Assembly (NCBI GenBank): GCA_032622095.1 | Contig: CP136069.1 | Coordinates: 2,327,462-2,391,461, forward strand | Direction of reading: 5' to 3' | DNA length: 64,000 bases | DNA from: Siphonodentalium dalli | Lineage: Eukaryota; Mollusca; Scaphopoda; Gadilida; Siphonodentaliidae | In this document: piece by piece, positions 5,605-60,417 of the stretch | Numbering within the stretch: position 1 is the stretch's first letter | Layout: each line of letters begins with the position of its first letter | The notes under the pieces: model-generated | Told to the model about the DNA's origin: nothing | The model's input: the letters and a program-made list of their open reading frames with translations, nothing else | Databases searched by the model: none | Translations under genes and position numbers: made by a program

Positions 5605-6318
5605 TTTACCAGAATCCAGCCAATGGTTCCTGACGTCTCACTAATAATGAATGACACAAACCCAATTCCGAAAAAAATCTGGTCCGTCAGCTCCCAACAC
5701 TGCTCCGAAAACCATGAATTGCAGTGGATTCGTGTGACCAAGTACAAAGCGACCTGCTACAATCTCTGCACAGCATCAGAATATGAGGCCGCCGCAACCT
5801 GGAATGACTGGTTCTCAGTCTCAACATGGAACTACTGGTTCCCAGGGGTATCCACAGCGTCCGTATAATAATGTGAATCCAGTGTCTCTCAAGGATATCT
5901 GGTTAATAGCCAGACGCCATCTTCAACTAATGTTCTCAGACAGATTGTTCCGTTAATGCAGCAAAAATGTGTGCCAAATGGCTATAATCAAACTAATAAA
6001 TCTCGGACTATGTTCAATCAATCTCAACATCATCTAATCAACATATGGGCGTGGCTTCACAGCAGAATCACCCTATGAGAGTGGGTGACTGGTCAACATA
6101 TGGGCATGCATGGCCCCACAACAGATGGGTATGGTTGCTCAACAAAATCAGATGATTAGCGGAGCTTCATAAATGATTGACGGTTCTATGCCCGGGGGCA
6201 GCACTCTTCCTCGTACCTTTGTGATAAATCAGCCAATCGGTTCACAAAGATTGACTGGACCTCAGTTAAACTATGTTACTCAGAACACTTTTTCAGTTTC
6301 AGGCCGCTAATTCAGCAG
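5605..6318 (+). pseudogene. STIL: STIL-like Gln/Pro-rich exon relic
   Basis: An acceptor (CTTCTGATTACAG) precedes 5605 and a donor (CAG then GTTAGTAT) follows 6318. All three forward frames are interrupted, but each holds a low-complexity Ser/Pro/Gln/Asn-rich stretch that continues the previous one after a single-base shift. Examples are 'KRPATISAQHQNMRPPQPGM', 'HGTTGSQGYPQRPYNNVNPV', 'QMGMVAQQNQMISGAS' and 'STLPRTFVINQPIGSQ'. The composition fits the disordered central-to-C-terminal half of STIL, a centriole-duplication scaffold that binds PLK4 and SAS-6. Assignment of this exon rests mainly on its position upstream of the better-matched exons at 13.0 and 21.8 kb. At least three frameshifts or stops point to a pseudogene or to uncorrected read errors. 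Confidence 0.5.
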
Positions 6319-6400
6319 GTTAGTATATAATATCTCTGAATGATCTGTGCCGAATTTGGCCGCTAGTTCAGCAGGGCAGTATGTAACATGTCTTAATCGG
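6301..6400 (+). repeat. tandem copy of an exon 3' end and its splice donor
   Basis: GGCCGCTAATTCAGCAGGTTAG (read in two parts, 6302-6323) is repeated about 57 bp later as GGCCGCTAGTTCAGCAGGGCAG (6358-6379). In the second copy the donor GT has become GC. The copied piece contains the last bases of the STIL-like exon and its 5' splice site. Confidence 0.75.
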
Positions 6401-6772
6401 TATGATATATTTAAACGGACATAGCCTATTTGAACCTTCAAGTGATCCTTGATTCTCCTAGGTGGCACATGATTTAATTATGTTAACTGGTTCAGTGCTG
6501 AAAGCCCATATTAGGACCCTATGTAAGAGTGCTGGAAGCCCAGATATGGGCTTTGGCAATGACACTGTCTTGTTTAGTCAACTCTTGTTTAATTTAATCA
6601 TTTAAATAGCGTTTGTCAGGTAATATTTCAGAAATATTGTTACATATATAATTAAAATGGGACATTGTGAAGTTTGAATGGATGCCAACCAATAAAATTA
6701 TCAGAAAAGGTACTTATATCGCAAAAAGTTTGAGAAAAATTACAAATGTTTTGCCCTAAAGGGCGGCCGACA

Positions 6773-7110
6773 ACCAAGCTCATGACCATAACCTAATCAG
6801 ACATCCAGGCTCATATTGATAACCTACTTTGACAAACAGACAACCAGACTCATAAACATAGCCTAATGAGACATCCAAGCCCATAACCATTGCCTAATGA
6901 GACATCCAGACTCATAATCATTGCCTAATGAGACATCCAGACCCATCACCATAGTCTAATGAGACACCAAGGCTCATAACCATAGCCTAATGGCTAATGA
7001 GACATCCAGGCCCATAGGCATAGCCTAATGAGACATCCATACTCATAACCATAGCCTATTGAGACATCCAAGCTCATAACCACAGCCCAGAGAGACATCC
7101 AGGCTCATAA
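6773..7110. repeat. about 32-bp minisatellite, about 10 copies
   Basis: The unit is roughly GACATCCAGGCTCATAACC followed by ATAGCCTAATGA. Copies differ by a few substitutions, and one has an internal duplication of TGGCTAATGAGA. It lies in an intron of the STIL-like gene. Confidence 0.9.
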
Positions 7111-7493
7111 CATAATCACAAATGCATAATATATGGGGGTTAAATTTGAGAAAAGAGTGCAAATTATCAACTCCGAGCATAAAATTCAATAATTTTCTGT
7201 TTGTTGAAATATATATACGCGTTTTATTACGTGTGTATAGGCTATTTAGCAGCGAACCAGTTAATGTTGTTATGGCAACGTAACAAGAATTTCAGAAGTT
7301 TGTGATATTAAAATCATTGCAAAACAACGAATGTTGATTGGAAAAGCTGAGAATAATATCACTTTTGTTTGTATTTGGGCATGTAATAAATATAGAGACT
7401 GTATACTCCCTCTAGTCCAGAGAAAAAATACCTACAGTTTGTTCATTGTATTCAATTAAATTTCAATGTATCAGAATGTATTGATTGAAATAG

Positions 7494-7909
7494 TGTGTCT
7501 GACATTTGCAGAATGAGGTCCGCAGAGGGGTAATTTAGTCATGCTATCCCGCACGGTGGGCTCGTATCACCAAATTCACCCTCTGCTAACCTCATCTGCT
7601 TAGGCGTCAACTGATATGGGAGACCAAGGATCAGATTGAAGTTCCCCAGTTTAAGGTTGCTGATTTTCACCCATTAGTCACCTCGATTAAGCAATTTATC
7701 TTCTGCAATTTATGTGATATAGAAACTGAATAGAAGGGAAAAAGTAACCAAAAATAATATTAATTTGAGACTAGAGATACTTTTCAGTAGATGAGCCTGA
7801 AGCAGAATGATGTCCCTATAGCGTGAATTTAGTTATGCTAGCCCGCTGTGTGGGATAGCGTCACTAAATTCACCCTCTGGGTACCTCATTCTGCAAATGT
7901 CAGGCACTA
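7494..7909. mobile_element. family E palindromic MITE (copy 1)
   Basis: Inverted ends: CATTTGCAGAATGAGGTC at 7502-7519 and its inverse near 7888-7905. Inside, each half is itself a hairpin built from GGGTGAATTTAGTGATGC and its inverse. The same family recurs at 43.3, 46.0, 52.4 and 59.7 kb. Confidence 0.75.
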
Positions 7910-7957
7910 TTTGCCCAGATCACCAATAGGTTACTCACGCATCCACTACACTTTCAG

Positions 7958-8139
7958 ATGAATATAAACGATCTCAGCTATTAACAGCACTGATGGTGAC
8001 ATCCAGCCCCGGCTCATCAGGATTCATCACAACCACAAACTCCACCCACAGAACAGCTGGCCCACGATATCTCTTCTGAATTACTGACACCCTTCAAAGA
8101 AACAGCTAATCTTCGCGATAACATCCACTCATTTATCAA
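7958..8139 (+). pseudogene. STIL: STIL-like short exon relic
   Basis: It is bounded by CTTTCAG before 7958 and by the donor GTGAGTT from 8140. The first third reads 'EYKRSQLLTALMVTSSPGSS'. After a one-base shift the rest reads 'SQPQTPPTEQLAHDISSELL' followed by 'TPFKETANLRDNIHSFIK', which runs open into the donor. The helical, charged second part would suit the coiled-coil region of STIL, but I cannot place it by residue. The frameshift agrees with the disabled state of the neighbouring exons. Identification depends on context. Confidence 0.45.
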
Positions 8140-8260
8140 GTGAGTTCATGTGTTAGTAACCCACAGGGAGCCTCACACAGATGGAAGCATGCACTACAGA
8201 GTGTCGTCTGCTCCAGTCTATATGAGGCTCTCTATGTGTAGATATTTATCAAGTGAGTTC
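8125..8260 (+). repeat. exon end plus donor duplicated around hairpin H1
   Basis: ATTTATCAAGTGAGTTC, the exon end and donor at 8131-8147, is repeated at 8244-8260. The hairpin element H1 (8158-8239) lies between the two copies. The same exon-end/donor string with the same hairpin is amplified again at 13.4-13.7 kb. Confidence 0.8.
8158..8239. mobile_element. hairpin element H, copy 1
   Basis: About 82 bp with imperfect inverted ends: AACCCACAGGGAGCCTCACA at one end and the inverse of AACCCATAGAGAGCCCCACA at the other, with GGAAGCATGCACTACAGAGT in the loop side. At least 15 copies occur in the window. Confidence 0.8.
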
Positions 8261-8398
8261 GTACTTATAAATAATATTTTCTCAACAATCATTCAATTTC
8301 TACTAAATAAATAATATCTACTAATATAATATTTAGCAAATCATTCGATAATAAGCCCAAGTTTGGAATGCATTAATAAATCGATAAAGTCAAGGAAT

Positions 8399-9145
8399 CA
8401 TAATAGAAGAGGTGCCACGATTATTGATTTTGATAATCGATAATTGGTCGTCAATAATTGATTAATCGTATCTAATATCAATAACAGTGGAAGTATTCCG
8501 TAATATGGCCAATTGTCTGGGTGTTGGTTAAAAAACTTGTTTGTTGTAATTTTTACGTTAATAATGTGCACCATAAACCACCGGTAATGACTAATGAGCA
8601 CAATGTATTCAATACCAGCACATTTCTCGGCGATTGTGAGTTCATTAGAACGAACGTAGCCATTAACTTCAGTGTTATGAATAGCCAAACATACAAACAA
8701 TATAAAAGTAGGAATGCATGACGGACCGCCGATAGTTCCTAAAAAAAGGAATCTAATGTTACGGAAACTTGAAGTTTCAGCAAACTTCCAGAGTGTGGAT
8801 GACAATCACAAAGGTGCCCCAGAAATTTCAGGACTGAGAAAAAGTTAAGTAATTGATAATAGTGAGTTTCATTCAGCAGTCACCATCGATAAGTGATAGC
8901 CTGTACTAGTAACATCTAAGTATATTCATGTTGTCGGAATCTCTTTGATGCACGATCAAAGGTTGTTAAGCCTTCGGTTGTAGATTAAACTGTGTAAAAC
9001 AAACACGGTATTCAATAATACCCGGTACTTTCCGACGTCCGAAATAAATAACGGAGATTAATCAACGACGGAAATGGTAATCGATTATCGGCTTTATCAA
9101 CGGTTCATCGATTATACGATTAATCATGGCACCCCTACATAATAG
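8399..9145. mobile_element. hAT-type MITE with 8-bp target duplication
   Basis: The element spans 8407-9137 and is flanked by perfect direct repeats CATAATAG at 8399-8406 and 9138-9145. The inverted ends read AAGAGGTGCCACGATTATTG and, from the other side, TAGGGGTGCCATGATTAATCG (read in part). An 8-bp target duplication with GGTGCCA-type ends is characteristic of hAT elements. No transposase is encoded. A 44-residue open stretch on the + strand (8719-8846, containing 'GPPIVPKKRNLMLRKLEV') is not recognised. Confidence 0.85.
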
Positions 9146-10900
9146 CTTTTAATTTTAACAAATTTGATGAGTTGCGTAATGTATGTTTTTTGTCATTTGG
9201 CACTGCATAAATTTGATATAGCAAGGTACCTGTATATTTGATATAGGAAGGTACCTGTATATTTTGCATTGAAAACATCAGGTTAAATCCTCATTTACAT
9301 AAATATATAACATCCCATGCTTATTCCGGCCAATCGGCTTCATAATCCTGGTCGAGCCATATGTAAATGAGAGCTCAAAAAAAAAGAAATATTTCAGAAT
9401 TACTCACTAATTTAGTTATAAAATAGATAATGATGTATTGTTGATCGTTATGCATAGATAAATTATCAGCCGACAAGTCAGCATTGAGCACAAGATATTT
9501 TAGTTGATTGTTTATCGATTTTTAAAAAGTTGGATAGATTTTCGAAAAAATAGGATGGCAACATTGTTTGAGCAGAATCAACCTGGATATTTGACGTCTT
9601 GGGAGACAATATTCAGTGGTCAAATATGTATTAAATGCTATGGATAGAAATGGAATTATGGGGCGTTTATGGTATTAATTGAAAGTGGAATCCTTGGCCG
9701 ACACACCCGTGGCAACATCCATGCCATTGTTCGGATAAATAGGCTAAATTTGTCAGATTTCGAAATGATTGTAAATCAGGAGAATTCTATCGTTCCCCTT
9801 GTCTCTAGTATTCTACCACTGACATAAATGGTCTAACAGCGAACACGAGGTGGTTCCTCATTCGTCCACAAATATGACTGCAGTTGATTGCATGAATGCA
9901 GTTGAGTACTGAGGTAACACCGGTGGTCAACCTTGTTAAGGAGGGTTGATTAATTAGAGCATAGCTGTACACGCTTGTTTATATAAACAGGCTGCCAGCA
10001 TCTGGCCTCAGTGTCACTTGATTTCTTATAAAAATTAATTGATCAGCGATATCGTCAGGGCATGTTGGGAATGTCTGCATAAGACGTTCATGTACTACAG
10101 CATTCTCATTCCAAATTAGCATGTAAGCATAGTATCGTCTCGTGGTTTACTAATAAAACATTCAAACGTACCTCATCAATATACGAGATTTGAATATGAG
10201 ACTTAATTTTGAGGATAGTATTCTCAGAGTAAGATATAATGAATATGAAGGGAGGAGAAACTTCCGTAAATAAACGAAACAGTAGCAACTGCATTCAACA
10301 TCAAAGCATTTTAATTTTTTTACACGCATGCACAGTGTCGGTTCTACAACTTAAGCTGGTTAAAGTGACAGTATATTATATCTAATATTGTCACAAAACA
10401 TTCAAGACAACAACATTCACAAATCAACCCATCTAGGCTATTTACGTAATATGTGTCTGATTAAAGGCTGCCATGTGTATTGAGTATGTAATACGGGTGA
10501 TAGGAGGTGGTATTTGAACTTGACATAAGACACGCTTTCAAACGACAATCACATGTGATTTATCATTAACGCCTGAAATTGAAGACTATGATCGTCGTTA
10601 TTTAATGTGTAGGAGGTTGGTTATAACAATGTCGTTGGAGAAAAGTGCTGGGGAATTCTTTGGAGAATGGGGCCGTGTTTCAGTTGGCCGTCGATTTGAT
10701 AAGAGGATTGTATATGTTCTCAAACTTGTGGAACTAGAAGGTTGTTTCAAACTAGTTCGATGTGATCCCCATGCATGCAATAACTGGTCAATATTTAATG
10801 AAAGCTTGATTATGCTTTAAGTAAATGTTTAGATATACACATTTGAAATAAGGATGCCATTCTTTGGCTGAGATTTTTATTTTATTTTATGCTTGAATAT
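9146..10900. other. non-coding intronic stretch
   Basis: No gene is recognised. A relic of the family F terminal repeat (TTGATTAATTAGAGCATAGC then TGTA) lies at about 9946-9970. A short tandem duplication ATATAGCAAGGTACCTGTAT / ATATAGGAAGGTACCTGTAT is seen at about 9215-9260. Confidence 0.5.
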
Positions 10901-11068
10901 TATAATGAATTGTCATTTTTTAAATCCTAAGCATGATGTCCGAAAGTTTATACACATAACTTCCTGTATTTGTTGGTTCCTGGAAATCCATGTACAAAAT
11001 TGAGTCCAAAAGTTTATACACATAACTGTTCCTGTATTCGCAGATTCATGTAAATCCATGTACGTAAT

Positions 11069-12037: not shown

Positions 12038-12039
12038 TG

Positions 12040-13021: not shown

Positions 13022-13205
13022 GTATTACAATCCATCCATGAATTCCACCGTAATTCCGAACATCAATTACAACTCTGTTATGTTCGACTTGGACACAGAC
13101 TCGTCCATGGAGATAAACGCCATGGCGATGAAATATCTATAGGACGAAGACCTGACTCGAGTGATGAAGCTACAGAGCTCCGCCATCTACAAAAAAGCGA
13201 AACAG
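13022..13205 (+). pseudogene. STIL: STIL-like exon with premature stop
   Basis: The acceptor is TAATTTTACAG and the donor is AAACAG then GTACAG. From phase 1 it reads 'YYNPSMNSTVIPNINYNSV', 'MFDLDTDSSMEINAMAMKYL', a TAG stop at 13140-13142, then 'DEDLTRVMKLQSSAIYKKAK' and Q. The 'DTDSS...NA-AMKYL' arrangement resembles the segment of vertebrate STIL just upstream of its STAN motif (from memory), where an acidic, Ser-rich run is followed by 'AMKYL'. The frame is otherwise open on both sides of the TAG, so a single substitution explains the break. A read error or a real nonsense mutation are both possible. Confidence 0.6.
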
Positions 13206-13252
13206 GTACAGAAGAGCACTCTAATAATGCAGCTACTAGGTAATTAGTTAGT

Positions 13253-13336
13253 AACCCACATGGAGCCCCACAGAGATGGAAACACACACTACGGAGTGTC
13301 GTCTGCACAGACTATGTGGGTCTCTCTGCTATGGGT
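13253..13336. mobile_element. hairpin element H, copy 2
   Basis: A diverged copy beginning AACCCACATGGAGCCCCACA and ending near TATGTGGGTCTCTCTGCTAT. It lies 47 bp after the donor of the preceding exon. Confidence 0.7.
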
Positions 13337-13377
13337 GTATGTTTGTGTAACTTGGTGTATATTCTTCTTATACATTT

Positions 13378-13800
13378 AGTTCCCACAGGGAGCCTCACAC
13401 AGACTGAATCATGCACTGTGGAGTGCTGTCTACTCTATGTGGGGCTCTCTATGGGTCGACATTTATCAAGTGAGTTCATTTGTAATAACACACAGGGAGC
13501 CTCACACAGATGGAAGCATGCACTACAGAGTGTTATCTGCTCCAGTCTATGTGGGGTTCTCTATGGGTCGACATTTATCAAGTGAGTTCATGTGTAATAA
13601 CCCACAGGGAGCCTCACACAGACTGAAGCTTACACTATGGAGTGCTGTCTACTCTAGTCTATGTGGGGCTCTCTATGGGTCGACATTTATCAAGTGAGTT
13701 AATGTGTTATAACCCACAGGGAGCCTCACACAGATGGAAGCATGCACTACATAGTGTAATCTGATCCAGCCTATGTGGGGCTCTCTATAGGTTTGTGTTT
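13378..13800. repeat. tandem array of hairpin H plus a copied splice donor (copies 3-6)
   Basis: Four H elements (about 13378-13459, 13488-13569, 13599-13680, 13708-13791) are separated by GTCGACATTTATCAAGTGAG-type spacers. The spacer repeats the exon end and donor found at 8131-8147, so the unit of about 110-115 bp was probably copied from the earlier intron. Confidence 0.85.
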
Positions 13801-14153: not shown

Positions 14154-15665
14154 AAGGCCAAAAAAAATTAATAGTTCGGCTCTCGGGCCCCGGCGCATTG
14201 CCAAAAAGACCCCGCGTAGATGCTTTTTATTTCGAAAAATAACCTGGAAACGAAATCTGCGTACGATGAAATTTCTAGACTAATACAAAACTAGGAATTA
14301 AAACCGGAACGAAACTTCACATCATTACCGTATTGTCGCGGGTCATAGGAAATAAAAAGCATTAAAACATGGGTGGTCTGACGTGAACCAATAGAGAAGT
14401 AAGTATTTTTATGTAAGTATATCCTAAACCATCAGATGTCTGTTCATCGCGGTATAATTCAAATCCAAAAAAATTTTGTTCCGTATTGTGAACTCTGCAA
14501 TTCCGCGAGATTAATATTCCGCAAGACCGGAAATGTTAAAAATCGTCGGAAAATAAATGAAATTAAACTAATGCAGATCCAAAAATGGACATGTTGCTCC
14601 CAATTGAAGTAATCCACAAGACTAAAACGATTAGAAAGTGGTCTATCGTGTCAGTACCCGGCGATATAAACCGGGACCAGTTGCCAAAGACTTATTTAGC
14701 GGTAAAATCGATGATGTTCAACATGATGAAAATCCCGTTCCCGAAGAAATTAACCCTTACCACGAACACTCTCAGGGTAACACGGTCATCCATGTATTCG
14801 TCTCGGACAAGAAAACGGGGGAGTTTCAAAGAATAACTTTGAGTGCAGGTGTAGAGGAAACTGTTCAGTCATTTGTTCGATATATCAGGATTGAAATCAA
14901 ATTGAAAACTGACTTAAGCAGTGGTTCTGAATCAGCACCTAGTGTTAGCAGTCAACAGAGACAGAATGCATTCGAGATTTTGTTGAACAGTAGCAGAAAA
15001 CTTTGCTGGCCAGATAAATATTCTGAAGTGGATAATCGGGATATACAAAAAAATCATGTCCTGTATAATGATTTCATCGACTGGCTCCAAGAGCAGAAAC
15101 TTGGCTTCATGCCAAGTCATGTTAATACAGCAGGAAAAGATTTCTGCAAATTTGTTACAGATACACTCTGGTACGTGGATCCAGTCAGGAACCGATTTCA
15201 AGAACGGAGCATTTTATTGCCGAAAGTATTCGATAGATTCACCCGATACAATAACCCGAAGCTTCACAAGCATAAAATACCAAACATCTGCTTAGAAGAT
15301 TTAATAACACATGCCACTACCCTTGACCGTGTGACCGACCAACCGATACAAGACAGTCAACACTAATATAATATAAGTGACATTTATGTGTCAACACATG
15401 CAATGAACCACTGTTCTTTTTATTTTGTGAGCATTCCCTCATGTTTTTGCATTAAAGTTGTTGATAAAAGTTGTTGATAAAATTCTTCAGTCCAAAAAGG
15501 ATATATTACATGGTATAAAGTAAGGTAAAAGTAAGATAAATCAATTCCTTTTGCATCAGAAACACATCATAAATAATTATAAAAAATAAAAATAAAATCC
15601 TGCCTCCCTCACTGATTTGAAAAAAAAATTGCCCGAGAGCCTAATAATATATTTTTCTTGGCCTA
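14154..15665 (+). mobile_element. 1.5-kb TIR DNA transposon with an unknown ORF
   Basis: The left end (14154-14188) and the inverse of the right end (15631-15665) match over about 35 bp: AGGCCAAAAAAAATTAATAG then TTCGGCTCTCGGGC against AGGCCAAGAAAAATATATTA then TTAGGCTCTCGGGC. No clear target duplication was found. The interior carries one coding-looking frame (14638-15366). Copy 2 of the segmental duplication keeps only its right part (18124-18812). Confidence 0.65.
14638..15366 (+). CDS. transposon-borne protein of unknown function (242 codons)
   Basis: The frame opens after a stop at about 14632 and begins with GTG rather than ATG. A second frame from ATG at 14585 reads 'MDMLLPIEVIHKTKTIRKWS' and 'IVSVPGDINRDQLPKTYL', so a one-base shift may split the true start from the body. 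The body is soluble-looking and charged, with no signal peptide or membrane segment. It has an N-terminal beta-rich part ('VIHVFVSDKKTGEFQRITLS'), a Ser-rich linker (about residues 95-110), and an aromatic C-terminal domain with 'VLYNDFIDWLQEQKLGFMPS' and 'FCKFVTDTLWYVDP'. I do not recognise the family. In the duplicated copy at 18134 the C-terminal part differs by only a few residues, including Asp to Val, Ser to Cys and Gln to Pro. It lies between 35-bp TIRs, so it may be a transposon accessory or captured protein. Confidence 0.5.
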   Translation: MVYRVSTRRYKPGPVAKDLFSGKIDDVQHDENPVPEEINPYHEHSQGNTVIHVFVSDKKTGEFQRITLSAGVEETVQSFVRYIRIEIKLKTDLSSGSESAPSVSSQQRQNAFEILLNSSRKLCWPDKYSEVDNRDIQKNHVLYNDFIDWLQEQKLGFMPSHVNTAGKDFCKFVTDTLWYVDPVRNRFQERSILLPKVFDRFTRYNNPKLHKHKIPNICLEDLITHATTLDRVTDQPIQDSQH

Positions 15666-21610: not shown

Positions 21611-21784
21611 GAGTAATAAACTATGAATTAACTCGCATTCTCATCTTATTTATAGGTAGCGATAAGGAGAGTAATAAACTATGAATTAACTCGCATTCTC
21701 ATCTTATTTATAGGTAGCGATAAGGAGAGTAATAAACTATGAATTAACTCGCATGCTCATCTTATTTCTAGGTAGCAATGAGGC
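21611..21784 (+). repeat. 58-bp tandem triplication carrying the splice acceptor
   Basis: Units at 21611-21668, 21669-21726 and 21727-21784 each contain GAGTAATAAACTATGAATTA, then a pyrimidine-rich CTCATCTTATTTATAG, then GTAGCGATAAGGA. The last unit is the real exon edge (TTCTAG then GTAGCAATGAGGC). Each unit has a complete AG acceptor and the first 13 exon bases. Confidence 0.95.
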
Positions 21785-22588
21785 GAGTACACCAAACGTG
21801 ACGAAATTCGGGATGTCACCGAATAACCTGACAATGGGAACGAACCAGTATGTGGAACATCATGGACTTCTAAGTGAAACAGTAACAACAACAATGCTAA
21901 TGAGACATTATTTCCATTAGACAAGACGATACAGTTGAAAGTAGATTATAGTGTTAATATTCCTGATATACCTATGAATGGGATGATGGCTAGTGATTCG
22001 ATTCAGTCAATGAGGATAGATTTGACACATCATCATACAAATGGGCTGGCGAGTGATTCGATTCAAATGACGAGGATAGCTTCGCTGCGTCATCATGATT
22101 ATCGTTATGGTAACCAGATGTCTCCTGTGAAAAATTGTGTTTTTTTTAGACTCACGACTCACGTGTTCCTCCTCAGCCGTTTGTTGATAAGAACCAATAC
22201 TTGTCGCCACTGATGAACCATGCTGGTGACAGATTTAATAACAGTGACGGCTAGTGGCAGATACCTGTGCAGCAATTCTCAATTTCAAGATCGTCACTAT
22301 GTCAACCAGCCACACCAAGGAAACAATTCACCATACCAACCTCATCGCTATGGTAATCAAACTAACAATCGGAGACCTGCTCCAGTGAGAAACGAGAATA
22401 TCCATCCTGCCACAGATTCAAGTCCAGTCAGTAGTTGCTATGGCAACCAGGCTTATACAGCCACCAGTCTGAAGAAGCATATTGGAAACATTAACCTGGT
22501 TCAGGAGGAGTATATGTTCAATGCTATTCAAGAAGAGGACAATATCTTAGATATACCAAAACTCAGACAGTTACCAAAATTATTATAA
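21772..22588 (+). pseudogene. STIL: STIL-like terminal exon with STAN-like motif
   Basis: The first frame reads 'SNEASTPNVTKFGMSPNNLT' followed by 'MGTNQYVEHHGLLSE', which matches the STAN motif pattern of STIL (Ser-Pro-Asn-Asn, a Tyr six residues after a Met, then Gly-Leu-Leu). A stop follows unless the frame shifts by one base near 21900. The next frame gives 'LDKTIQLKVDYSVNIPDIPM' and a His/Asp/Ser-rich run. A further shift near 22140 gives 'PPQPFVDKNQYLSPLMN', and another leads to 'NSPYQPHRYGNQTNNRRPAP'. The end is 'EEDNILDIPKLRQLPKLL', like the conserved extreme C-terminus of STIL. The STAN motif binds SAS-6 in vertebrates. Three or more frameshifts within 0.8 kb imply a pseudogene or uncorrected indels. 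Confidence 0.65.
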
Positions 22589-37358: not shown

Positions 37359-39465
37359 TTTAGCTCAACTTACTTTTGTAAGTTTGAGCTATTGCCATGG
37401 TTTGGCGTCCGTCGTCCGTGTGTGCGAGTGTCCGTCAACAATTTCCTTTGGCGCGGGCTACAGGTCGTACCTTTGGTCTGATCTTTATGAAATTTGTCAT
37501 GAATGAGTCATTTTGGGGTCATTCGTCCAAAAAACATGGCCACTGGCAGCCATCTTGGATTTCAAGATTCAATCCATTGGGCGCGGGCTACAGGTCGTAC
37601 TGTTCGTCTGATCATGAAATTTGTCATGGGTGTTAATAATGATATGTAGATGGGAACGAGTCATTTTGGGGTCGTTCGGACGAAAAACATGGCCGGCAGC
37701 CATCTTGGATTTTACTCTTTGCATGACTAAATCCTTTGGCGCGGGCTACAGGTTGTACCTTGGTCTAATATTTATGAAATTTGTCACGAATGTTGACATT
37801 GGCATGTAGATGGGAATGAGTCATTTTGGGGTCATTCGGCCAAAAAACATGGCCGCTGGCAGCCATCTTGGATTTCAAGATTTAATCCATTGGCGCGGGC
37901 TACAGGTCATACTGTTCGTCTGATCATCATGAAATTTGTCATGGATGTTAATAATGACATGTAGATGGGAACGAGTGATTTTGGGGTCGTTCGGCCAAAA
38001 AACATGGCTGCCAGCAGCCATCTTGGATTTTACTCTTTGCATGACTAAATCCTTTGGCGCGGGCTACAGGTCGTTGTTTTGGTCGGAAGTTTATGAAATT
38101 TGTAATGGATGTTAACACTGTCATGTAGATGGGAACGAGTGATTTTGGAGTTGTTCGGCCAAAAAACATGGCCGCCAGCAGCCATCTTGGATTTTACTCT
38201 TTGCATGACTAAATCCTTTGGCGCGGGCTACAGGTTGTACCTTTGGTCTAATCTTTATGAAATTTGTCATGAATGTTGACATTGACATGTAGATGGGAAC
38301 GAATCATTGTGGGGTCATTCGGCCAAAAAACATGGCCGCTGGCGGCCATCTTAGATTTCAAAATTCAATCCATTGGCGCGGGCTACAGGTCGTACTGTTC
38401 GTCTGGTCATCATGAAATTTGTCATGGATGTTAATATTGACATGTAGATGGGAACGAGTCATTTTGGGGTTGTTTGGCCAATAAACATGGCCGCCAGCAG
38501 CCATCTTGGATTTTACTCTTTGCATGACTAAATCCTTTGGCGCGGGCTACAGGTTGTACCTTTGGTCTAATCTTTATGAAATTTGTCATGAATGTTAACA
38601 TTGACATGTAGATGGGAACGAATCATTGTGGGGTCATTCGGCCAAAAAACATGGCCGCTGGCGGCCATCTTAGATTTCAAAAATCAATCTATTGGCGCGG
38701 GCTACAGGTCGTCTGATCATCATGAAATTTGTCATGGATGTTAATATTGACATGCAGATGGGAACGAGTGATTTTGGAGTTGTTCGGCCAAAAAAGCATG
38801 GCCGCCAGCAGCCATCTTGGATTTTACTCTTTGCATGACTAAATCCTTTGGTGCGGGCTACAGGTCGTAGCTTTGGTCAGATGGTCATGAAATTTGTCGT
38901 GAATTATAACAATGACATGTAGATGGGAACGAGTCGTTTTGGGGTCATTCGGTCAAAAAACAAGGCCACCAGCATTTTACTCTTTGCATGACTAAATCCT
39001 TTGGCGTGGGCTACAGGTCATACCTTTAGTCTGATCTTTATGAAATTTGTCATGAATGTTGACATTGACATGTAGATGGGAACGAATCATTGTGGGGTCA
39101 TTCGGCCAAAAAACATGGCTGCCAGTGGCCATCTTGGATTTCAGAATTCAATCCATTGGCGCGGTCTACAGGTTGTACTGTTCGTCTGATCATCATGAAA
39201 TTTGCAGGTCGTAGCTTTGGTCAGATCTTCATAAAATTTGTCATGGATGTTAACAATTATACGTAGATGGGAAACGAGTCCTTTTGGGGTCAATTGGCAA
39301 AAAAAAATGGCCACCAGCAGCCATCTTGTATTTTACTCTTTGCATCACTAAATCCTTTGGCACAGGTTAGACATTTCAATTAGCACCTTTCCTATTCCTC
39401 CATTTACTGTCAACCATTAAATTATTCCCCTACCTAAGTTGAGCTACAGTGTCATTGACACTTTC
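37359..39465. mobile_element. satellite-bearing element with about 12 units of about 160 bp
   Basis: It starts with a hairpin TAGCTCAACTTAC-TTTT-GTAAGTTTGAGCTA (37363-37392) and ends CCTAAGTTGAGCTACAGTG (39434-39452), so the AGCTCAACTTA ends are inverted. Between them, GGCGCGGGCTACAGGTCGTA recurs about every 160 bp (37453, 37581, 37740, 37893, 38057, 38220, 38375, 38537, 38697, 38850, 39003, 39158) with GGCCAAAAAACATGGCCGC in each unit. The organisation resembles a non-autonomous element that expanded its core in tandem. Confidence 0.8.
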
Positions 39466-44916: not shown

Positions 44917-45570
44917 TAACACTCACAAATTACTATTTCACTGGCTTCAGCTGGTTTCGGGGGTAAAAGATATTTGATTTGAGTCGAGGAAACCACCCAT
45001 CAAAGCTCAGTGTGATCAGATACCGAGTTTTGAAATCTATTACTTTTCACCACCAGTAATTTTTAGTGGCCTGGTAAAAAGTTGACGAGAAGACGGTCTC
45101 GAACCAAGTTGCAGATGAAGATGGATAACTCTAAAATCAAGTTAGATATTTCATTTCATTTTGTTGAACAAAACGTTGAAAAATAACAGGTTTTGGGAAA
45201 TTTTATATTATATTTAATTGTGGTTAGCATTATTTTTGGGCAATCTATCCATTCTGATAACTGAAGCGGCATTTCAAAAACATTTTGTTGTTGCTGGAAT
45301 CTGATGATATGGGGACCATCCAAACGGATTGAGTACCTTTAAGGTGTTGTTCCTAACAATCGATCATCGCAATAAAGATTATTCGGATATGTTAACCAAT
45401 CAACTACCAGTATTTTATGAGGTGATATGATATGTTAACCAAGCCAGTATCTGATAGCATATGATTAAATTATTGATCAATTCTGTTTCCTCCAATTTCC
45501 ATTTTCAATGAGATTTAACAATTAAATTATCAATGAATATATACAAATATATATATACGGTAGACGACTC
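44917..45570. other. intergenic, nothing recognised
   Basis: No coding or clear repeat units. Confidence 0.4.
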
Positions 45571-45576
45571 TCTTTA

Positions 45577-45940
45577 GTGCATGCTTCCATCTGTGTGAGG
45601 CTCTATGTGGGTTAAACGCTCAACTTCAGCGATATCATTGGCTCATTCATTAGAGAGCCCCACATAAACTTGAGCAGATGACACTCCATAGAGCATGCTT
45701 CCATCTGTGTGAGGCTCCATATGGGTTAAACATTAAACTTTTTATCTTATTAATCGCCTCGATTAATAGAGAACCCCACATAAACTGGAGCAGACGACAT
45801 ACTTCCATCTGTGTGAGGTTCCCTGTGGGTTAAACACTAAAGTTTACATATTGCCTCTGTTCAGAGAGCCCCACACAGACTGGAGCAGACAACACTCCAT
45901 TGTATTCTTCCATCTGTGTGAGGCTCCCTGTGGGTTACCT
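45577..45940. mobile_element. cluster of hairpin H elements, copies 8-11
   Basis: Inverse orientation. Copies lie at about 45577-45614 (half), 45651-45729, 45768-45833 and 45860-45935. Each ends CTGTGTGAGGCTCCCTGTGG then GTTA, separated by short spacers with ATCGCCTCGATTAAT-like sequence. Confidence 0.85.
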
Positions 45941-46479: not shown

Positions 46480-46920
46480 TGACTGGGTGAGACTCCCAGC
46501 TGTCCACAGAAACTCCCATGTAAGCGACCGGTGTGCATACTGATTATAGTGTGGTCCATTTCCATGGAGATAATGAATCATAAATTGACGCACATGATAG
46601 CATTGTAAAATCTTGCCTGGTTAAGACATCAGGCACTCACATCTGTCCACAGAAACTCCACTGTAAGCAATCTGTATGCCGATTATAGTGTGATCCGTTT
46701 CCATGGAGACATGGAATCATATGTTGACTAGAACATAAGAGTTATTCACCAGGTACGTTTCAACATGCACACTCTGCTATAACCAATCGGCCTATACACT
46801 AATACTGATTATAATGTGATCCGTTTCCATTGAGATACAAATCACTTTATATTGTGATCAGTTTCCAAGGAGACCCAAGTCATTTTGTAGAGTGCTCCAT
46901 TTCCATGGCGATGGCAGATC
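46480..46920 (-). repeat. tandem copies of the CRYZ stop-codon region
   Basis: The block ATTATAGTGTGATCCGTTTC then CATGGAGA-ATG-AATCATA occurs at about 46540-46580, 46680-46720 and 46805-46835, with shorter versions at 46855 and 46890. The last reaches the stop at 46919. Two of the units also share CTGTCCACAGAAACTCC upstream. It lies in the 3' UTR or just beyond. Confidence 0.75.
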
Positions 46921-47080
46921 ATACTTTGAGGACCATCTTGCCTGAAGCAGCGGCAGTTTGAATGATATCGACATGCGCCTGGGAGGCACTCTCCAGCGCG
47001 TACACAGGTCCGACATGTGGGCGGAGCCAACCAGCCGTCAATCCATCCTCTATGTATTTGTTCAATTCTTTGAACTCTTC
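46919..47080 (-). CDS. CRYZ: CRYZ-like quinone oxidoreductase, terminal exon
   Basis: The acceptor is TTAAATTACAG before 47080 and the stop is TGA at 46921-46919. 53 codons in phase 0: 'EEFKELNKYIEDGLTAGWLR' then 'PHVGPVYALESASQAHVDII' and 'QTAAASGKMVLKV'. This is the C-terminal end of zeta-crystallin/NADPH:quinone oxidoreductase of the MDR superfamily. It shows the family's closing 'GWLxPxxG...YxLExxxxAHxxII' and 'GKMxL' pattern. The family makes one-electron NADPH-dependent reductions of ortho-quinones in the cytosol and can bind AU-rich RNA. No frame damage is seen. With the other four exons the window holds 186 codons, against about 329 for the human protein. Confidence 0.9.
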   Translation of the reverse strand, partial: EEFKELNKYIEDGLTAGWLRPHVGPVYALESASQAHVDIIQTAAASGKMVLKV

Positions 47081-51451: not shown

Positions 51452-51547
51452 CTGGTTTGACATCATCACGCTGACGCCAGTCACAATGCCTTCCTTAGCC
51501 ATTATAGATCGTGGACTGATTTCTATCGGACCTCTGGCACCAACGAT
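51452..51547 (-). CDS. CRYZ: CRYZ-like quinone oxidoreductase, penultimate exon
   Basis: The acceptor is CAG before 51547 and the donor GTCAGTATG from 51451. 32 codons, phase 0 at both ends: 'IVGARGPIEISPRSIMAKEG' and 'IVTGVSVMMSNQ'. It corresponds to the 'VGSRGxIEINPRxxMxKExxIxGV' segment of zeta-crystallin, in the Rossmann-fold cofactor domain, where the Arg after Gly-Ala/Ser is a candidate NADPH-phosphate contact by family analogy. No boundary duplication is seen at this exon, unlike most others. Confidence 0.9.
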
Positions 51548-53425: not shown

Positions 53426-53638
53426 CAAGTCACATGACTGGGTCACATGACTATGCAGACGTCACTGTTGTCTGTGGCAGACATTTTGAATCAACTGTTG
53501 CAGTGAGTTTAAATTTTCAGGTAATTTATTGCTTGTGTGGCCCTAATGTTTTCTATTTGACTCATAGAATATGGTTGTAGTGATATTTTTATTTATGATA
53601 TTATTTTAACAATTGTTTTACCATTTTCAAGAATGACC

Positions 53639-54311: not shown

Positions 54312-54870
54312 AACAATTTTAACCTTGGTAAAGCTTGGTAAAGCTAGGCTGCAACCTTGGTAAAGCTTAGCTGTAACCTTGGTCAAGGTTGCAACCTTGG
54401 TAAAGCTTGGTAAAGCTAGGCTGCAACCTTGATAAAGCTTGGTAAAGCTAGGCTGCAACCTTGGTAAAGCTAGGCTGCAACCATGGTAAAACTTGGTAAA
54501 GCTAGGTTGGAAACCTCGGTAAAGCTTGGTAAAGCTAGGCTGCAACCTTGGTAAAGCTTGGAAAAGATAGGTTGGAAACTTTGGTAAAGCTTGGTTGGAA
54601 ACCTTGGTAAAGCTTGGTTTGTAACCTTGGGAAAGCTTGGTAAAGCTAGGCTGCAACCTTGGTAAACCTCGGAAAAGTTATGATTAAGATATTGTTAAGC
54701 TTGGAAATCCTTGGATGAGCTCGGTTGAATTTTCTGAGGTATTCCAAGGTTTTCCTAACTTGAAACGTTCCAATACCGCCCCAAGGATTTCCAAGCTTTT
54801 CCAAGTTCTCCGATCCTAGGATATCCTAGGAATTCCAAGGAATTTTCCTAACTATTCCAAGGTTTTATTT
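54312..54870. repeat. CCTTGG/AAGCTT minisatellite, right part
   Basis: About 12 units of 30-35 bp (GCAACCTTGGTAAAGC then TTGGTAAAGCTAGGCT), decaying after 54660 into CCAAGGATTTCCAAGC-type sequence. Because AAGCTT and CCAAGG/CCTTGG are palindromic, both strands read alike. Confidence 0.9.
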
Positions 54871-54935
54871 TGGTAAGTGAAGTGAGAAATAAATGCTAAG
54901 AATTACCAATTTCTGCATTATATCACCCATATATA

Positions 54936-55086
54936 CAGAAATTGACTCATTGCCATTCATCAGAAAACTCTCACTGAGAGCTTTCTGATGAATGGCAACA
55001 AGCCATATTTCCGACTAAATCCTGAAAAATTACCCATACCAGTAATTCTGCTGTGGTTAAGGAATCGATTATTTAGGGCATTACTG
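54936..55086. mobile_element. family F long-hairpin MITE, copy 3 (left arm shortened)
   Basis: The right arm is complete to GATTATTTAGGGCATTACTG. The left arm keeps only CAG plus TGCCATTCATCAGAAA. Confidence 0.8.
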
Positions 55087-55423
55087 TACTCATATAAACA
55101 TGAATATGCATCAAATAGCCATTAGTATGGAAACCCAGATGGTTGCCACGGTCACATGACCTCTATGAGTGGCTATGAACTTGTGATGCCTATGTCTAAT
55201 CACATATGAAGTTTCAACAAATTATTACAAGCAATACTTGAGATACACTATGTTACCCATGTACACACATAATGTTTTTATACATGTATGGTATACTTGG
55301 AAGTGGGGAATCTTTCCGTGGTGCTGACTGGCAGCGAAAGAGTTATTATGAGGTTTTGATGACCAGATATCGACTTTGAATAGAAAAAGAACCTCAATGC
55401 CTTCTAAGTGTATAAACCATAGA

Positions 55424-55496
55424 TAGCCCCACATAAACTTCAGCAGACGACACTCCATAGTGCATGCTTCCATCTTTGTGAGGCTCCCTGTGGGTA
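55424..55496. mobile_element. hairpin element H, copy 13
   Basis: Inverse orientation: AGCCCCACATAAACTTCAGC to GTGAGGCTCCCTGTGGGTA. Confidence 0.8.
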
Positions 55497-55857
55497 CATA
55501 CAACTACATGAAAAAATAGATTTACTTTGTTCTTATGTTCATTATTAATAACTCTCCAGTAATTACAATTCACATGTCAAAACCATTGTTATGTAAACAT
55601 TACTGTTACAGTGGAATTACAGATAAAAGTCCAATTAGTCAGGTCAGTAACATTTGAAAAGCTCAACGCATTGAAAAATATTCTGAAAATCATATTCAGT
55701 TTCTCCAAGTTCTCCTTATCAGTGATTTTAATGCATACATTTATATATTTTGGCACATTTATCCACTGCGAGTGACTTGGGTACAGTACCTTTAATTTCA
55801 GTTATCGCACATGTATGTTAACACACACTTCAGGGAGAATAAAATAATTGAGTTTAC

Positions 55858-55959
55858 CACAACAGTTCCATGGAAGCTCATGAGATCTATGTCACTTTGT
55901 AGATTAACGTTGGACAGCATCTCAATAGTTAGATTCACACCAGATTCACCAACTTTAGC
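55858..55959 (-). CDS. CRYZ: CRYZ-like quinone oxidoreductase, third exon seen
   Basis: The acceptor is TTTTTTCAG before 55959 and the donor GTAAACTC from 55857. 34 codons, phase 0: 'AKVGESGVNLTIEMLSNVNL' and 'QSDIDLMSFHGTVV'. It matches the 'GxxGxDxIxEMLANVNLxxDLxLLxxxGxxVVVG' segment of zeta-crystallin. The exon's first 38 bases and acceptor are repeated three more times upstream in the intron. The exon itself is intact. Confidence 0.9.
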
Positions 55960-56945
55960 CTGAAAAAACAAGAGGCCGGTCACAATCAGCAGATGTGTAA
56001 GCCACACATTCAGCCATTTATAATATGCATCTCGATAGTTAGATTCACACCAGATTCACCAACTTTAGCCAGCAAATACAAGAGGCTGGTCACAATCAGC
56101 AGATGTGCAACCCACACATTAAACTATTTATAATAAACATCTCGATAGTTAAATTTACACCAGATTCACCAACTTTATAGCCTGAAAAAACAAGAGGCCG
56201 GTCACCACAATCGGCAGATGCGTAACACACACATTCAACCAGGGTTCTTGCTGACACTTGCCAAATTCGCCAATGGCAAAAAAAATTCACATTTGGCAAA
56301 AAAAAAATTTATTTGGCAAAAGTTTTGGCAAGTCACATTTTAATTCCTCACTAAAGTTGAAAAATATTGGTCAATCAATACCATTCATTTTAGGAAATTA
56401 GTACAATGGAATATATTAGTAGTGTTTTATATGGTTTCGGAAAAGTTCACACCTCCATTAATATGCAGTTAATTAGTATCGATGGGTGGAGGGATTACCC
56501 GTATTAAGTGTGATGGTGGTGTTTACATAGCTAAATTAATCCTCTTGTGATGTTCCATTATGATAAAGCAACGCTTCTACCATCATTGTATTGTTCGGTG
56601 ATTGGTTTATTGCTGTATGATAAACCACAATAGAGATGAGAGTATAATAATTAACTAACTGCTTTTCTATCGATATCAAACCGCGAGTGTTGGAACATAA
56701 GACTTAATCAAGGTAGCAGAAAATGATACTATTAGTGATAATATTTGGCAAATTCTAAAAAAAAATTGGCAAAAAATATTTACATTTGGCAAATTATTTG
56801 GCAAAAGTCAATTTCGGTCCAGAGCGGACCCTGCATTTAACTACTTATAATATTCATCTTGACAGTCAGATTTACACCAGATTCACCAACTTTAGCCTTC
56901 AAACAAAGAGGCCGGTCACAATCAACAGACCTGTAATCTGCATAG
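55922..56945 (-). repeat. acceptor plus exon start of CRYZ copied four times
   Basis: GATTCACACCAGATTCACCA then ACTTTAGCC (exon start, minus strand) with the adjoining intron block AAGAGGCCGGTCACAATCAG occurs at about 55930-56010, 56040-56115, 56152-56225 and 56868-56935. Copy 2 has lost the AG (CTG in place of CAG) and copy 3 has a 2-bp insertion in the exon part. Copy 4 has been pushed away by the hAT MITE at 56240-56833. Confidence 0.9.
56232..56841. mobile_element. hAT-type MITE within the acceptor array
   Basis: Bases 56240-56833 have ends CAGGGTTC and GGACCCTG and an 8-bp target duplication CATTCAAC / CATTTAAC (one mismatch). The interior has many TTTGGCAAA motifs near both ends (sub-terminal repeats). 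Confidence 0.75.
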
Positions 56946-57233
56946 ATCATGCCATGAATCTCTAGCCTGCCTAACACCCGTAAAGATCATATTCCACCAG
57001 TATAAAACCTTGGAACTTTTTGAAGTTTTGACAGAGAACTTTATAAAGTCGAAAAAATAAAGCGGGGAATATATTTCTTAGTTATTATCTGTTACTTTCT
57101 AAATAGTTTCTGATGTCTGATTGCGTTTTAAGATGACAAATGTGTCAATGATGAGGACAAATGTTTCAATGATGAGGACAAATTGGATAATTCAAATATA
57201 TTTTAATCAGGTGTCTAACATTTATTTTGTTGA

Positions 57234-57530
57234 GATACTCATCATTTCTATGGTTACTCATAGCTTTATCTAATCGAGATATCCATCGTTTCTATGGTTA
57301 CTCATACTATTATTTCATCAAGATATCCATCGTTTCTATGGTTTTACTCATACCTTTATTTCATTGAGATATCCATCGTTTCTATGGTTTTACTCATACC
57401 TTTATTTCATTGAGATATCCATCGTTTCTATGGTTACTCAAACCTTTATTTCATCGAGATATCCATCGTTTCTATGGTTACTCATACCTTTATTTCATCG
57501 AGATATCCATCATTTCTATGATTAAACACA
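57234..57530 (-). repeat. CRYZ exon end plus donor repeated about seven times
   Basis: On the minus strand the 43-47-bp unit is ATAGAAACGATGGATATCTC, then GATGAAATAAAGGTATGAGT, then AACC. It contains the last 11 codons of the exon ('HRNDGYLDEIK') and the donor GTATGAGT. About six extra units follow the true donor in the intron, down to 57234. Variants include insertion of AA and loss of some bases. Confidence 0.95.
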
Positions 57531-57637
57531 TGATCGGCACCATTTCTTCCTACTACGTCCATCCCCATCTGGGACCCTGCTGTTGCAAACACCTCCATGC
57601 CCAGATGCTTTCCGATCTGTACGCAGGCCAATCCAAC
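57488..57637 (-). CDS. CRYZ: CRYZ-like quinone oxidoreductase, second exon seen
   Basis: The acceptor is CATGTTTTCAG before 57637 and the donor GTATGAGT from 57487. Exactly 50 codons, phase 0: 'VGLACVQIGKHLGMEVFATA', 'GSQMGMDVVGRNGADHVFNH' and 'RNDGYLDEIK'. With the previous exon it completes the NADPH-binding motif 'GASGGVGLACVQIGK' (GxxGGVG type) of the MDR fold. 'FATAGSQ' and 'NGADHVFNHR' match the second strand and the following helix. The exon is intact even though its last 33 bases are tandemly repeated in the intron. Confidence 0.92.
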
Positions 57638-57675
57638 CTGAAAACATGAAAAATATTATTTGTACGCAAGCCAAT

Positions 57676-58057
57676 TTAAAGTGATGTGAAACACTCCGGT
57701 AGGTTGAGCAAATATAGAAATGGATAATAATATTGCTTAAAGTACCGGTAGTTATTTTTACGAATATAAATCCAAATTGACAACACACACCGTCATTCTT
57801 ATATATTAATTAAATAGAATGATGCTAGATGGCGAAATCTTTCCGTTAGTTTATCGCCAATTGTTGCGTCCTGAATTGAGATGTAAATATTTACAATTGA
57901 GCATAGTTCAGATGATGTTTTCTATGGAGTGGTATGGTCGATTTATTTGAAATTTTCGGTGGTGTTAGTAGAATGTAACATTCCCCAGGTTGGCATAGAG
58001 CCTGAGAACTAACTTATAAGTTTATCGCACTCGAACAAGTCCATAATATGTCTTTAA
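57676..58057. mobile_element. TTAA-bounded MITE, copy 2 (inverse orientation)
   Basis: TTTAAAGTGATGTGAAACAC at the left and CATAATATGTCTTTAA at the right. Internal blocks such as TCTATGGAGTGGTATGGTCG match the inverse of 51761-52142. Confidence 0.7.
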
Positions 58058-58148
58058 CCTGCTGAAAACATAAAAAAAATATTCTGTACGCAGGCCAATC
58101 CAACCTGAAAACATGAAAAATAAAATTTTTCCTGTATAAATACCAACT

Positions 58149-58600
58149 AGAGGTGCGAGTGTCCCAATGTGACTAAGGATACCCCCCCCCCCCCTGTGTT
58201 TTAAAAACACTAAGATATTTCACATGTCAGTAAACATTTAGTTAAAATAATAAAATAACAGATTCCCATTGAAGTTGCACAAACCTAACCCCTAACACTA
58301 ATCCTAAACCTATTGACCTAAAAATTGTATAAAATTATATATGTTGCGAAACTTTTCTAAGTCGAAAAAGGGGGATAACTCCACCAAAAAAAGTCCGACA
58401 GATGTCATAATCACAGGTGCACAGGTTCCCATGGTGGTTGATGTCTGCGCCAAGTTTTACAGAAAACCATAAAAAAAACTCCAAACAAATTTGTGTCAAC
58501 AGACAACGGATGGACGACAGACAATAGATGGCTAAACTGATTCCAGTATACCCCCCCCCCCCCCCCCGCACCCAACAATTTTTTTGCAGGGGGGTATAAT
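58149..58600 (-). mobile_element. Helitron-like element of the 'TATACCCCCC' family (copy 3)
   Basis: On the minus strand it starts ATTATACCCCCCTGCAAAAA, has a GTATACTGGAATCAGTTTAG block, and ends CACTCGCACCTCTAGT at 58149. It is the same family as 23432-23886. The poly-C runs (58182-58195 and 58552-58567) are its terminal (C)n tracts. The long open frame through here is not a gene. Confidence 0.65.
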
Positions 58601-58844
58601 TAAATATGGTCGGATATGACAAATACATTGCATATCTCTCTATCTTATGACAGCATTTCTGTTCAGTGACATTATGCAGCCTGTGTTTATGGATAGAGTC
58701 GGATATTTTGATAACCATTGGCTGCGATTTGGGAAAAGAATTATTGCGATGCCCAGCCGGCACGAAAAAATTAACTGGGTGTATGGCGGTCATGAGAATT
58801 ATCGCGGTGTATGGTGATCGCAAAACAAATCGTACATCCTGATA

Positions 58845-59005
58845 TATAGAATCGTACATCCTGTTTATATATAGAATCGTACATCATGATATATAGAATC
58901 GTACATCCTGTTTATATATAGAATCGTACATCATGATATATAGAATCGTACATCCTGATATATAGAATCGTACATCCTGTTTATATATAGAATCATACAT
59001 CATGG
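58845..59005. repeat. about 24-28-bp AT-rich tandem repeat
   Basis: About seven units of ATATATAGAATCGTACATCC with TG or ATG endings. Confidence 0.95.
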
Positions 59006-59450
59006 TAAAACAAATTAAAGCGACTATAATTTACTTGGCTACTGCATTTAAAAAGATATGTCAAAATCTAGCTTTTGCGGAGATACCACTTGACCGCGGT
59101 TGACTGGTGGTATGACTGCGGTCATTTCCGGCCTATAACCTTGTTAAAGGGGTTGATTAATTAGAGCATAACTGTATATCTCTTTCTTCAGTCTATTAAG
59201 ATATTTACCAATTTGCCTGTGGTTTGAAATACGAGCCTTCTGAAAGTTTGAGGCGATGACAGCATTGTATTGATGGATTGGATTTGACCATGATTTTTGT
59301 GATACAATTCAGAATATCTACCACAAAATAACATTCATAAATCCATGGGAACCAAGGTTACTGACCAATCAGGATGAGCCTTGTATGCAGATTTAGGCAA
59401 GGTCATATTTCAAACTGCATAGTCTTGATCATAACAAGAGTTACAGTGAG
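59005..59450. other. CRYZ intron; relic of a family F end
   Basis: TTGATTAATTAGAGCATAAC then TGTA at 59153-59176 is a family F-like terminal repeat, as at 9946-9970. Nothing else was recognised. Confidence 0.45.
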
Positions 59451-59453
59451 AGC

Positions 59454-59552
59454 TTTCCGATGAATGGCAACAAGCCATATTTCCGACTAAATCCTAAAAA
59501 GTTACCTATAATTCTGCTGTGGTAAAGGAGTCGATAATTTAGGGCATTACTG
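59454..59552. mobile_element. family F MITE, copy 4 (right arm only)
   Basis: CAGTGAGAGCTTTCCGATGA to TTTAGGGCATTACTG. The left arm is missing. Confidence 0.8.
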
Positions 59553-59605
59553 TATTTCTTAAATAAACATCATCATACATTTGAAGTATAAGTTGATAAA
59601 CTTAC

Positions 59606-59657
59606 CCCGCCACTTGCTCCATGAACCAGTAATGTCTGACCTTTCTTGGCATGACCC
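59606..59657 (-). CDS. CRYZ: CRYZ-like quinone oxidoreductase, first exon seen
   Basis: The acceptor is TTTCTAG before 59657 and the donor GTAAG from 59605. 52 bp: one base completing the previous codon, then 17 codons 'GHAKKGQTLLVHGASGG'. This is the beta strand and first Gly of the NADPH-binding loop of zeta-crystallin ('VLVHGASGGVG' type). About 140 N-terminal residues should lie upstream (higher coordinates), but no matching exon was found to 64000. They are probably outside the window. Confidence 0.88.
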
Positions 59658-59726
59658 CTAGAAATAAACAACGCTCAGAAATAAACAGATAAAACAACAC
59701 TTAGAAATAAACTGATCAAGCTTCAG

Positions 59727-60085
59727 TTTAGTGAGTCTGTCATTTGCAGGTCCCCAGAGTGTGAATTTAGTGACACTATCTCACATAGCAGGCTAGCATA
59801 ACCAAATTCAACCTCTGGGGACCTCATTCTGCACGGCCTCATCTGCTATGGTAGACAAAGACTCAGATTGAATTTCCCAAATGGTGAATATTGTGATTTA
59901 CACCCATTGGGAACCTCGAGTATGCAATGTGTCGTCTGCCAATTTGAGGATATAGAGAAACTAAACTAAAAAAGAAATAGATTCTATGTGAAGAAGTTTA
60001 TACAGAAATTTGATAATAAACAAACTTTCCAGAGAAGATGATGTCTAAGCAGAGAGTGAATTTAGTGGGGACCTCATTTCTTTAT
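59727..60085. mobile_element. family E palindromic MITE, copy 5
   Basis: TTTAGTGAGTCTGTCATTTG to about GTGAATTTAGTGGGGACCTC. Partly deleted on both halves. Confidence 0.8.
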
Positions 60086-60417
60086 AATGTGGGATATGTT
60101 GAGATAACAAAGAGCCAATGAGCAGTTGTTATCTGATTATTCCTAAAGGAACTGCATGTAATCATCAATGCATATTTAATCAAGAAAGGGTTAAACTTTA
60201 AAGGCTAAATCTTGCTGTAATGTCAGACCTTTGTGGCGTGACCCCCTGGAAATAAGCCAAATAAAACAACAGTTATATAAATAAAATAAACATAAAATAC
60301 AAATAAAACAACAGTTATATAAATAAAATTAACATAAAATACAAATGCAGAAGGAATCCTATTCATTGGTTGGAAATATTCTGAAAAACTCAATTACAAC
60401 ACTGTATAAATGGTATA

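Follow-up and report, generated by a model that had tools for sequence, protein, structure and literature searches.

The question raised by this locus is why short tandem repeats lie across the borders between exons and introns, and whether such borders are favoured places for tandem duplication. The window, i.e. the whole stretch of 64,000 nucleotides that was analysed (C9:2327462-2391461), belongs to the genome of Siphonodentalium dalli (2.227 Gb in 9 contigs). It holds parts of two genes, CRYZ on the minus strand and a STIL-like gene on the plus strand. Three arrays in the window clearly cross a splice border: at the exon 5 donor of CRYZ, at the exon 6 acceptor of CRYZ and at the acceptor of the STIL-like last exon. 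These arrays are probably minisatellites whose position across exon edges is incidental, of the 'mirage' type known from lancelets, in a duplicated and repeat-rich block. This reading is based on the arrays themselves, on differences in unit number between paralogues, on the stops or frameshift that follow spare CRYZ splice sites, on the broken state of the STIL-like copy and on the repeat load. An initial annotation had listed seven border cases. The three named above are clear, two at STIL-like donors turned out weaker, and two, an exon 4 acceptor (59657/60245) and the stop region of CRYZ, did not hold.

Arrays across three splice borders

Tandem Repeats Finder (TRF) gave 72 rows within the window. 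The three clear arrays and the exons that they cross are as follows, with the supporting method in brackets.

57488..57637, minus strand: CRYZ-like exon 5, VGLACVQIG...DEIK (tblastn, frame check, Pfam ADH_zinc_N)
57221..57524, minus strand: array crossing the exon 5 donor, 44 bp x6.8 (TRF, paralogues)
55858..55959, minus strand: CRYZ-like exon 6 (tblastn, frame check)
55916..56241, minus strand: array crossing the exon 6 acceptor, 110 bp x2.9, three tandem units (TRF)
56834..56936, minus strand: fourth exon 6 acceptor unit, with an inserted stretch between it and the array (sequence comparison)
21772..22588, plus strand: STIL-like last exon, ending in LDIPKLRQLPKLL, frame broken in the window copy
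21611..21789, plus strand: array crossing the last-exon acceptor, 58 bp x3.1, 95% matches (TRF)

CRYZ has eight exons, five of them in the window and three just to the right of it. The eight-exon frame is intact with a single terminal stop (frame check), and the joined in-window exons match Pfam PF00107 (ADH_zinc_N, zinc-binding dehydrogenase) with an E value of 1.9e-22. As judged from the domain and the full reading frame, the gene is CRYZ (quinone oxidoreductase). Each unit of the exon 5 array contains about 33 exon bases and the donor, in agreement with the roughly sevenfold donor that had been placed at 57234-57530. The fourfold exon 6 acceptor (55922-56945) was also recovered, as three tandem units and one further unit at about 56.9 kb past the inserted stretch. 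The threefold acceptor of the STIL-like gene (21611-21784) is the 58-bp array. That such arrays lie beside existing introns is real, and a further case was found outside the view of the initial annotation: a 31 bp x9.9 array crosses the donor of CRYZ exon 2, to the right of the window (TRF). At the exon 3 acceptor, a 48 bp x2.3 array comes within 2 bases of the exon without including the AG (TRF).

The STIL-like gene has five pieces collinear with a human STIL query sequence. One piece, left of the window, matches with E 1e-4, and the four in the window with E 0.32-1.8. The ending LRQLPKL is shared with this query. Two extra weak hits (E 2.3 and 2.6) fall out of order, and a Pfam search of the STIL-like frames gave no match. 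The collinear similarity, in mostly weak matches, and the shared ending suggest a STIL-like identity. The window copy is broken: its first and last pieces contain stops or frameshifts, and a STIL-matching stretch is interrupted by an in-frame stop.

The predicted effect of the extra units on splicing was read from the reading frames. Eleven extra CRYZ donor copies were matched by script, six by exon 2 and five by exon 5, some units being unmatched. Read-through from these copies meets a stop in ten cases and gives a frameshift in one, 31 nt into the intron; two of the eleven have no GT. Both extra exon 6 acceptors that retain AG are followed by a stop, and the two extra STIL-like acceptors of the window copy run into a stop after 8 codons. 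Since use of the spare CRYZ sites checked would lead to a stop or a frameshift, the spare splice sites look like dead ends. The suggestion that selection tolerates spare sites agrees with this in a weak form, in which extra copies can remain intronic.

A probable course of events is the following. A short segment would be duplicated in tandem via slippage or microhomology-mediated repair, and the array could then lengthen or shorten by slippage or unequal exchange. If a splice site falls inside the segment, the exon would keep its sequence and still be joined through the outermost original site, the additional copies then being intronic; for this reason the event would be almost neutral in CRYZ, and fully so in the STIL-like copy, which is broken. 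We infer this use of the outermost splice site, the neutrality of the arrays and the exact mutational step.

Many extra copies retain GT or AG, which would suit intron gain or alternative splicing under way, with extra donors and acceptors used and kept by selection. A precedent is the RdRp gene of potato, in which an intron was gained following a border-crossing duplication (PMC4974935). This explanation is nevertheless extremely unlikely here: the matched CRYZ donors (10 of 11 to a stop, 1 to a frameshift) and both AG-retaining exon 6 acceptors lead nowhere, no new intron was seen, and the last exon is broken in all seven STIL-like copies with extra acceptors. The border-crossing arrays do not prove a new intron-making process; by their look they are ordinary length-unstable minisatellites.

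Unit number in other genomic copies

Both genes belong to a block that occurs more than once. Three fuller copies of the CRYZ exons were found, in the window, on C9 at 0.83 Mb and on C1 at 263.4 Mb, with partial copies on C3 and C7. The STIL-like pieces have 113 matches genome-wide. The last exon alone was counted at 30 distinct places in the match table (C1, C2, C3, C6, C7, C8 and C9), a count that omits matches covering just the last ~35 residues. Twenty-eight of the 30 places lie at most about 15 Mb from a contig end, and C8 carries the remaining two (34.5 and 40.5 Mb). The two genes had been presented as unrelated; as they recur together in one block, they are not independent witnesses.

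In the paralogues read, the arrays of CRYZ exons 2, 5 and 6 are found at the corresponding borders, and no new intron was noticed. At the exon 5 donor, seven units were counted in the window, ten on C1 and at least 14 on C9 at 0.83 Mb. The last array (L047 from 834, L048 1-89) is seemingly interrupted by about 2.5 kb of inserted sequence, with two more units beyond. The exon 2 donor has 9.9 units in the window block, 9.7 on C9 at 0.83 Mb, 11.4 on C1 and 6.4 on C3; a second exon 2 copy on C9 at 0.83 Mb has 2.4 units. The exon 6 acceptor is present in three copies on C1, and in four both in the window and on C9 at 0.83 Mb.

Units at the STIL-like acceptor were counted in 17 of the 30 last-exon places. 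One unit was found in 10 copies, two in 5, three in 1 (the window) and five in 1. The window copy has three units and the C1 copy two, with near-identical downstream sequence (end branches 0 and 0.0012). On a tree built from the sequence downstream of the array, three changes between one unit and more units were counted, at least two of them forced by well-supported branches. Junctions of 58 bp and of 66 bp both occur. In single-unit copies such as L032, GAGTA stands on either side of the 58-bp segment, and these flanks would fit slippage or microhomology repair. In 15 of the 17 copies, including all seven multi-unit copies, none of the frames from the last acceptor exceeds 49 codons. An intact last exon was found in two copies only, L032 and L033 (C3, 2.8 and 2.5 Mb), each with one unit.

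The unit number varies, as in mirages; here the variation was seen between paralogues in one assembly, in lancelets between haplotypes. Tandem arrays are prone to wrong lengths in assemblies, and one globin mirage in a lancelet draft seemed misassembled (PMC3087553). That the arrays are assembly errors is nonetheless very improbable, as arrays at the same borders are found on other contigs or at distant places of the same contig, with internal variants of their own.

Other exon edges and the question of an excess

Further exons, edge copies and repeats of CRYZ in the window are as follows.

58083..58122, minus strand: acceptor edge of exon 5 repeated without mismatch over 40 bp, 467 bp upstream of the real site
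59606..59657, minus strand: CRYZ-like exon 4
60217..60255, minus strand: degraded, non-tandem copy of the exon 4 acceptor edge
51452..51547, minus strand: CRYZ-like exon 7, both edges without array or spanning copy (tblastn, TRF)
46919..47080, minus strand: CRYZ-like last exon, acceptor edge without array or spanning copy (tblastn)
46492..46912, minus strand: diverged repeats, 38 bp and longer, beyond the stop codon (TRF)

The supposed twofold tandem acceptor of exon 4 (59657/60245) is a degraded copy located 588 bp upstream, with 85% identity over 40 bp. A 26-bp x2 array nearby (59666-59716) stops 8 bases short of this exon. A fivefold copy of the stop region (46480-46920) had also been claimed. 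These repeats begin about 7 bases past the stop codon (46919), which is not itself copied, so that the region is not a border case.

Two donor edges of the STIL-like gene were supported in part.

5605..6318, plus strand: STIL-like exon piece, frame broken by internal stops
6301..6397, plus strand: two diverged copies of the donor edge of this piece
7958..8139, plus strand: putative STIL-like exon piece with a GTGAGT donor, unmatched by the human STIL query
8157..8239, plus strand: hairpin H, a dispersed palindromic repeat flanked by two donor-edge copies
13022..13239, plus strand: STIL-like exon piece whose STIL-matching stretch contains an in-frame stop
13382..13792, plus strand: 112-bp x3.7 array consisting of hairpin H and the STIL-like donor edge of 8.1 kb (TRF)

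At the first donor, said to be doubled (6301-6379), a second copy does exist, with 82.5% identity in a 40-bp match spaced 56 bp from the first, but it reads GGCAGT, which is not a GT donor, and TRF gave no row there. Both copies are also present on C1 and on C9 at 0.89 Mb, the two other genomic copies read. At the second donor, described as duplicated around the hairpin (8131-8260, and again at 13.4-13.7 kb), the exon edge is indeed copied, as an exact 17-base match 113 bp further on and past H. Hairpin H is however a dispersed repeat, with at least 65 matches in the genome (40 of 976 candidates scored), and it occurs on C1, C2, C4, C5 and C7 apart from STIL-like copies. For this donor, the stretches L055 and L056 (C1 and C9 at 0.89 Mb) gave no match. 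Hairpin H is further seen at 13249-13792 and 45562-45937, and in regular spacing at, for example, C2 8.77 Mb and C7 207.9 Mb.

Among the 16 splice borders in the window, three lie inside a TRF array, and for six the sequence across the border has an ungapped copy nearby. If duplication were biased to exon edges, e.g. by breaks linked to transcription, by polypyrimidine tracts or by microhomology close to splice sites, a possibility also for lancelets, more such cases than by chance would be expected. Spanning copies were scored at 21 splice borders and two stops, 23 borders in all, and compared with positions drawn at random from the gene spans concerned. This score supersedes an initial one without the spanning rule, which gave 8 of 23 at the loosest thresholds. 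These and the following edge tests are post hoc, with uncorrected P values, and concern one gene block. With the two most permissive thresholds, seven of the 23 borders were positive against 2.7 expected (P 0.013 and 0.011, respectively). At stricter settings there were six positives (P 0.036), five (P 0.073, 0.059 and 0.037) or three (P 0.19). Relative to the base rate over 264 kb, 0.31, which equals the observed fraction, there is no excess. For CRYZ, a circular-shift test gave 4 of 14 borders against 1.71 expected (P 0.095). Three of the 14 lie in TRF arrays against 1.67 expected (P 0.25), and five lie within 10 bp of one against 1.85 expected (P 0.042). Genome-wide, paired donor motifs were counted 2856 times and the reversed pattern 3078 times, i.e. 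no excess, in a coarse count of matches in which long arrays weigh heavily.

Some of these results speak against the minisatellite reading. Several edge tests reach nominal P values of 0.01-0.04, which plain neutrality would not predict. In CRYZ, the rate of spanning copies climbs toward the exons, from 0.098 in introns at 400 bp or more from an exon, to 0.143 at 100-400 bp, 0.325 at 20-100 bp and 0.338 at less than 20 bp, and it is 0.271 in the last 20 exon bases. The climb toward the exons keeps the biased process under consideration, and the exon 2 donor array, which turned up at an exon not seen in the initial annotation, together with the 5 of 14 and the 7 of 23 counts at their nominal P values, agrees with it. 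On the other side are the stricter criteria (P 0.19 and 0.25), the circular shift, the post hoc nature of all tests on a single gene block, the 264-kb base rate and the donor-pair count. That copies are enriched at exon edges is not established. The local bias proposed in the initial annotation was thus not shown (P from 0.01 at the loosest to 0.25, no excess over the 264-kb base rate), and it is considered unlikely. That duplication favours exon edges throughout the genome of this animal, with splice borders as hot spots of minisatellite birth and paralogues that record the steps (1, 2, 3 and 5 units) at one acceptor, is likewise regarded as doubtful.

The minisatellite reading agrees with the low rate of local copies in CRYZ exon interiors, 0.039 compared with 0.098-0.338 in the introns, and with the repeat load. 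Within the window, 13.45% of the sequence lies in TRF arrays of period 10-500; the share is 31.0% in the left 100-kb flank and 29.9% in the right one, so that the odds of any border falling inside an array are fair. Between CRYZ and the STIL-like gene, tandem units of about 164 bp occupy 37501-39141 (10.4 copies). Direct duplications with 97-99% identity were found at 10905-12647/16226-17962, which are 5.3 kb apart, and at 14969-15749/18123-18906 and 15853-16227/18905-19279, which are about 3.1 kb apart. They touch an open frame of 243 aa (14635-15363) without Pfam match. A Pfam scan of ten open frames, nine in the flanks and one in the window, identified reverse transcriptase in two and an endonuclease at the cut-off in one; one frame matched a DUF below the cut-off and six had no match. 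On the minus strand of L017:6020-9154 the reverse transcriptase and endonuclease frames lie side by side, by appearance a non-LTR retroelement. The housekeeping genes PGK, ATP synthase beta and enolase were located in the genome as possible independent controls.

Comparison with known systems

The potato RdRp case is similar in that the duplicated segment spans an intron-exon border (PMC4974935); it differs in that the arrays described here flank existing introns and no new intron was seen. In human genes located in segmental duplications, variable internal tandem repeats were described by De Grassi and Ciccarelli in 2009 (PMC2812944). There, as here, recent paralogues have come to differ in gene structure through the expansion of minisatellites. 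Half of the human variable repeats reportedly alter proteins (PMC2812944), whereas the extra units at this locus apparently stay intronic.

The closest parallel is that of the lancelet mirages, in which an exon-intron boundary is copied in tandem, as in Adh3, the globins BflGb6 and BflGb9, troponin C and PGBD5. The units measure 10-160 bp, their number is unstable across haplotypes, AG or GT is retained in many of them, and splicing is reported to be undisturbed (PMC3087553, PMC3902484). The mirage descriptions found in the literature concern lancelets only, the coverage being partial and no proof of absence outside this group. If true, the occurrence of mirage-type arrays outside lancelets would make them a more general substrate from which new introns and alternative splice sites could arise. 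Between 1 and 5 units were counted in the 17 copies of the STIL-like acceptor, which constitutes a natural time series in which array birth and turnover can be tested. Unlike the lancelet cases, the arrays described here lie in a multi-copy duplicated block in which one of two genes is broken. Like the lancelet mirages, their units hold both exon and intron bases, at the CRYZ exon 2 and exon 5 donors, the exon 6 acceptor and the acceptor of the STIL-like last exon.

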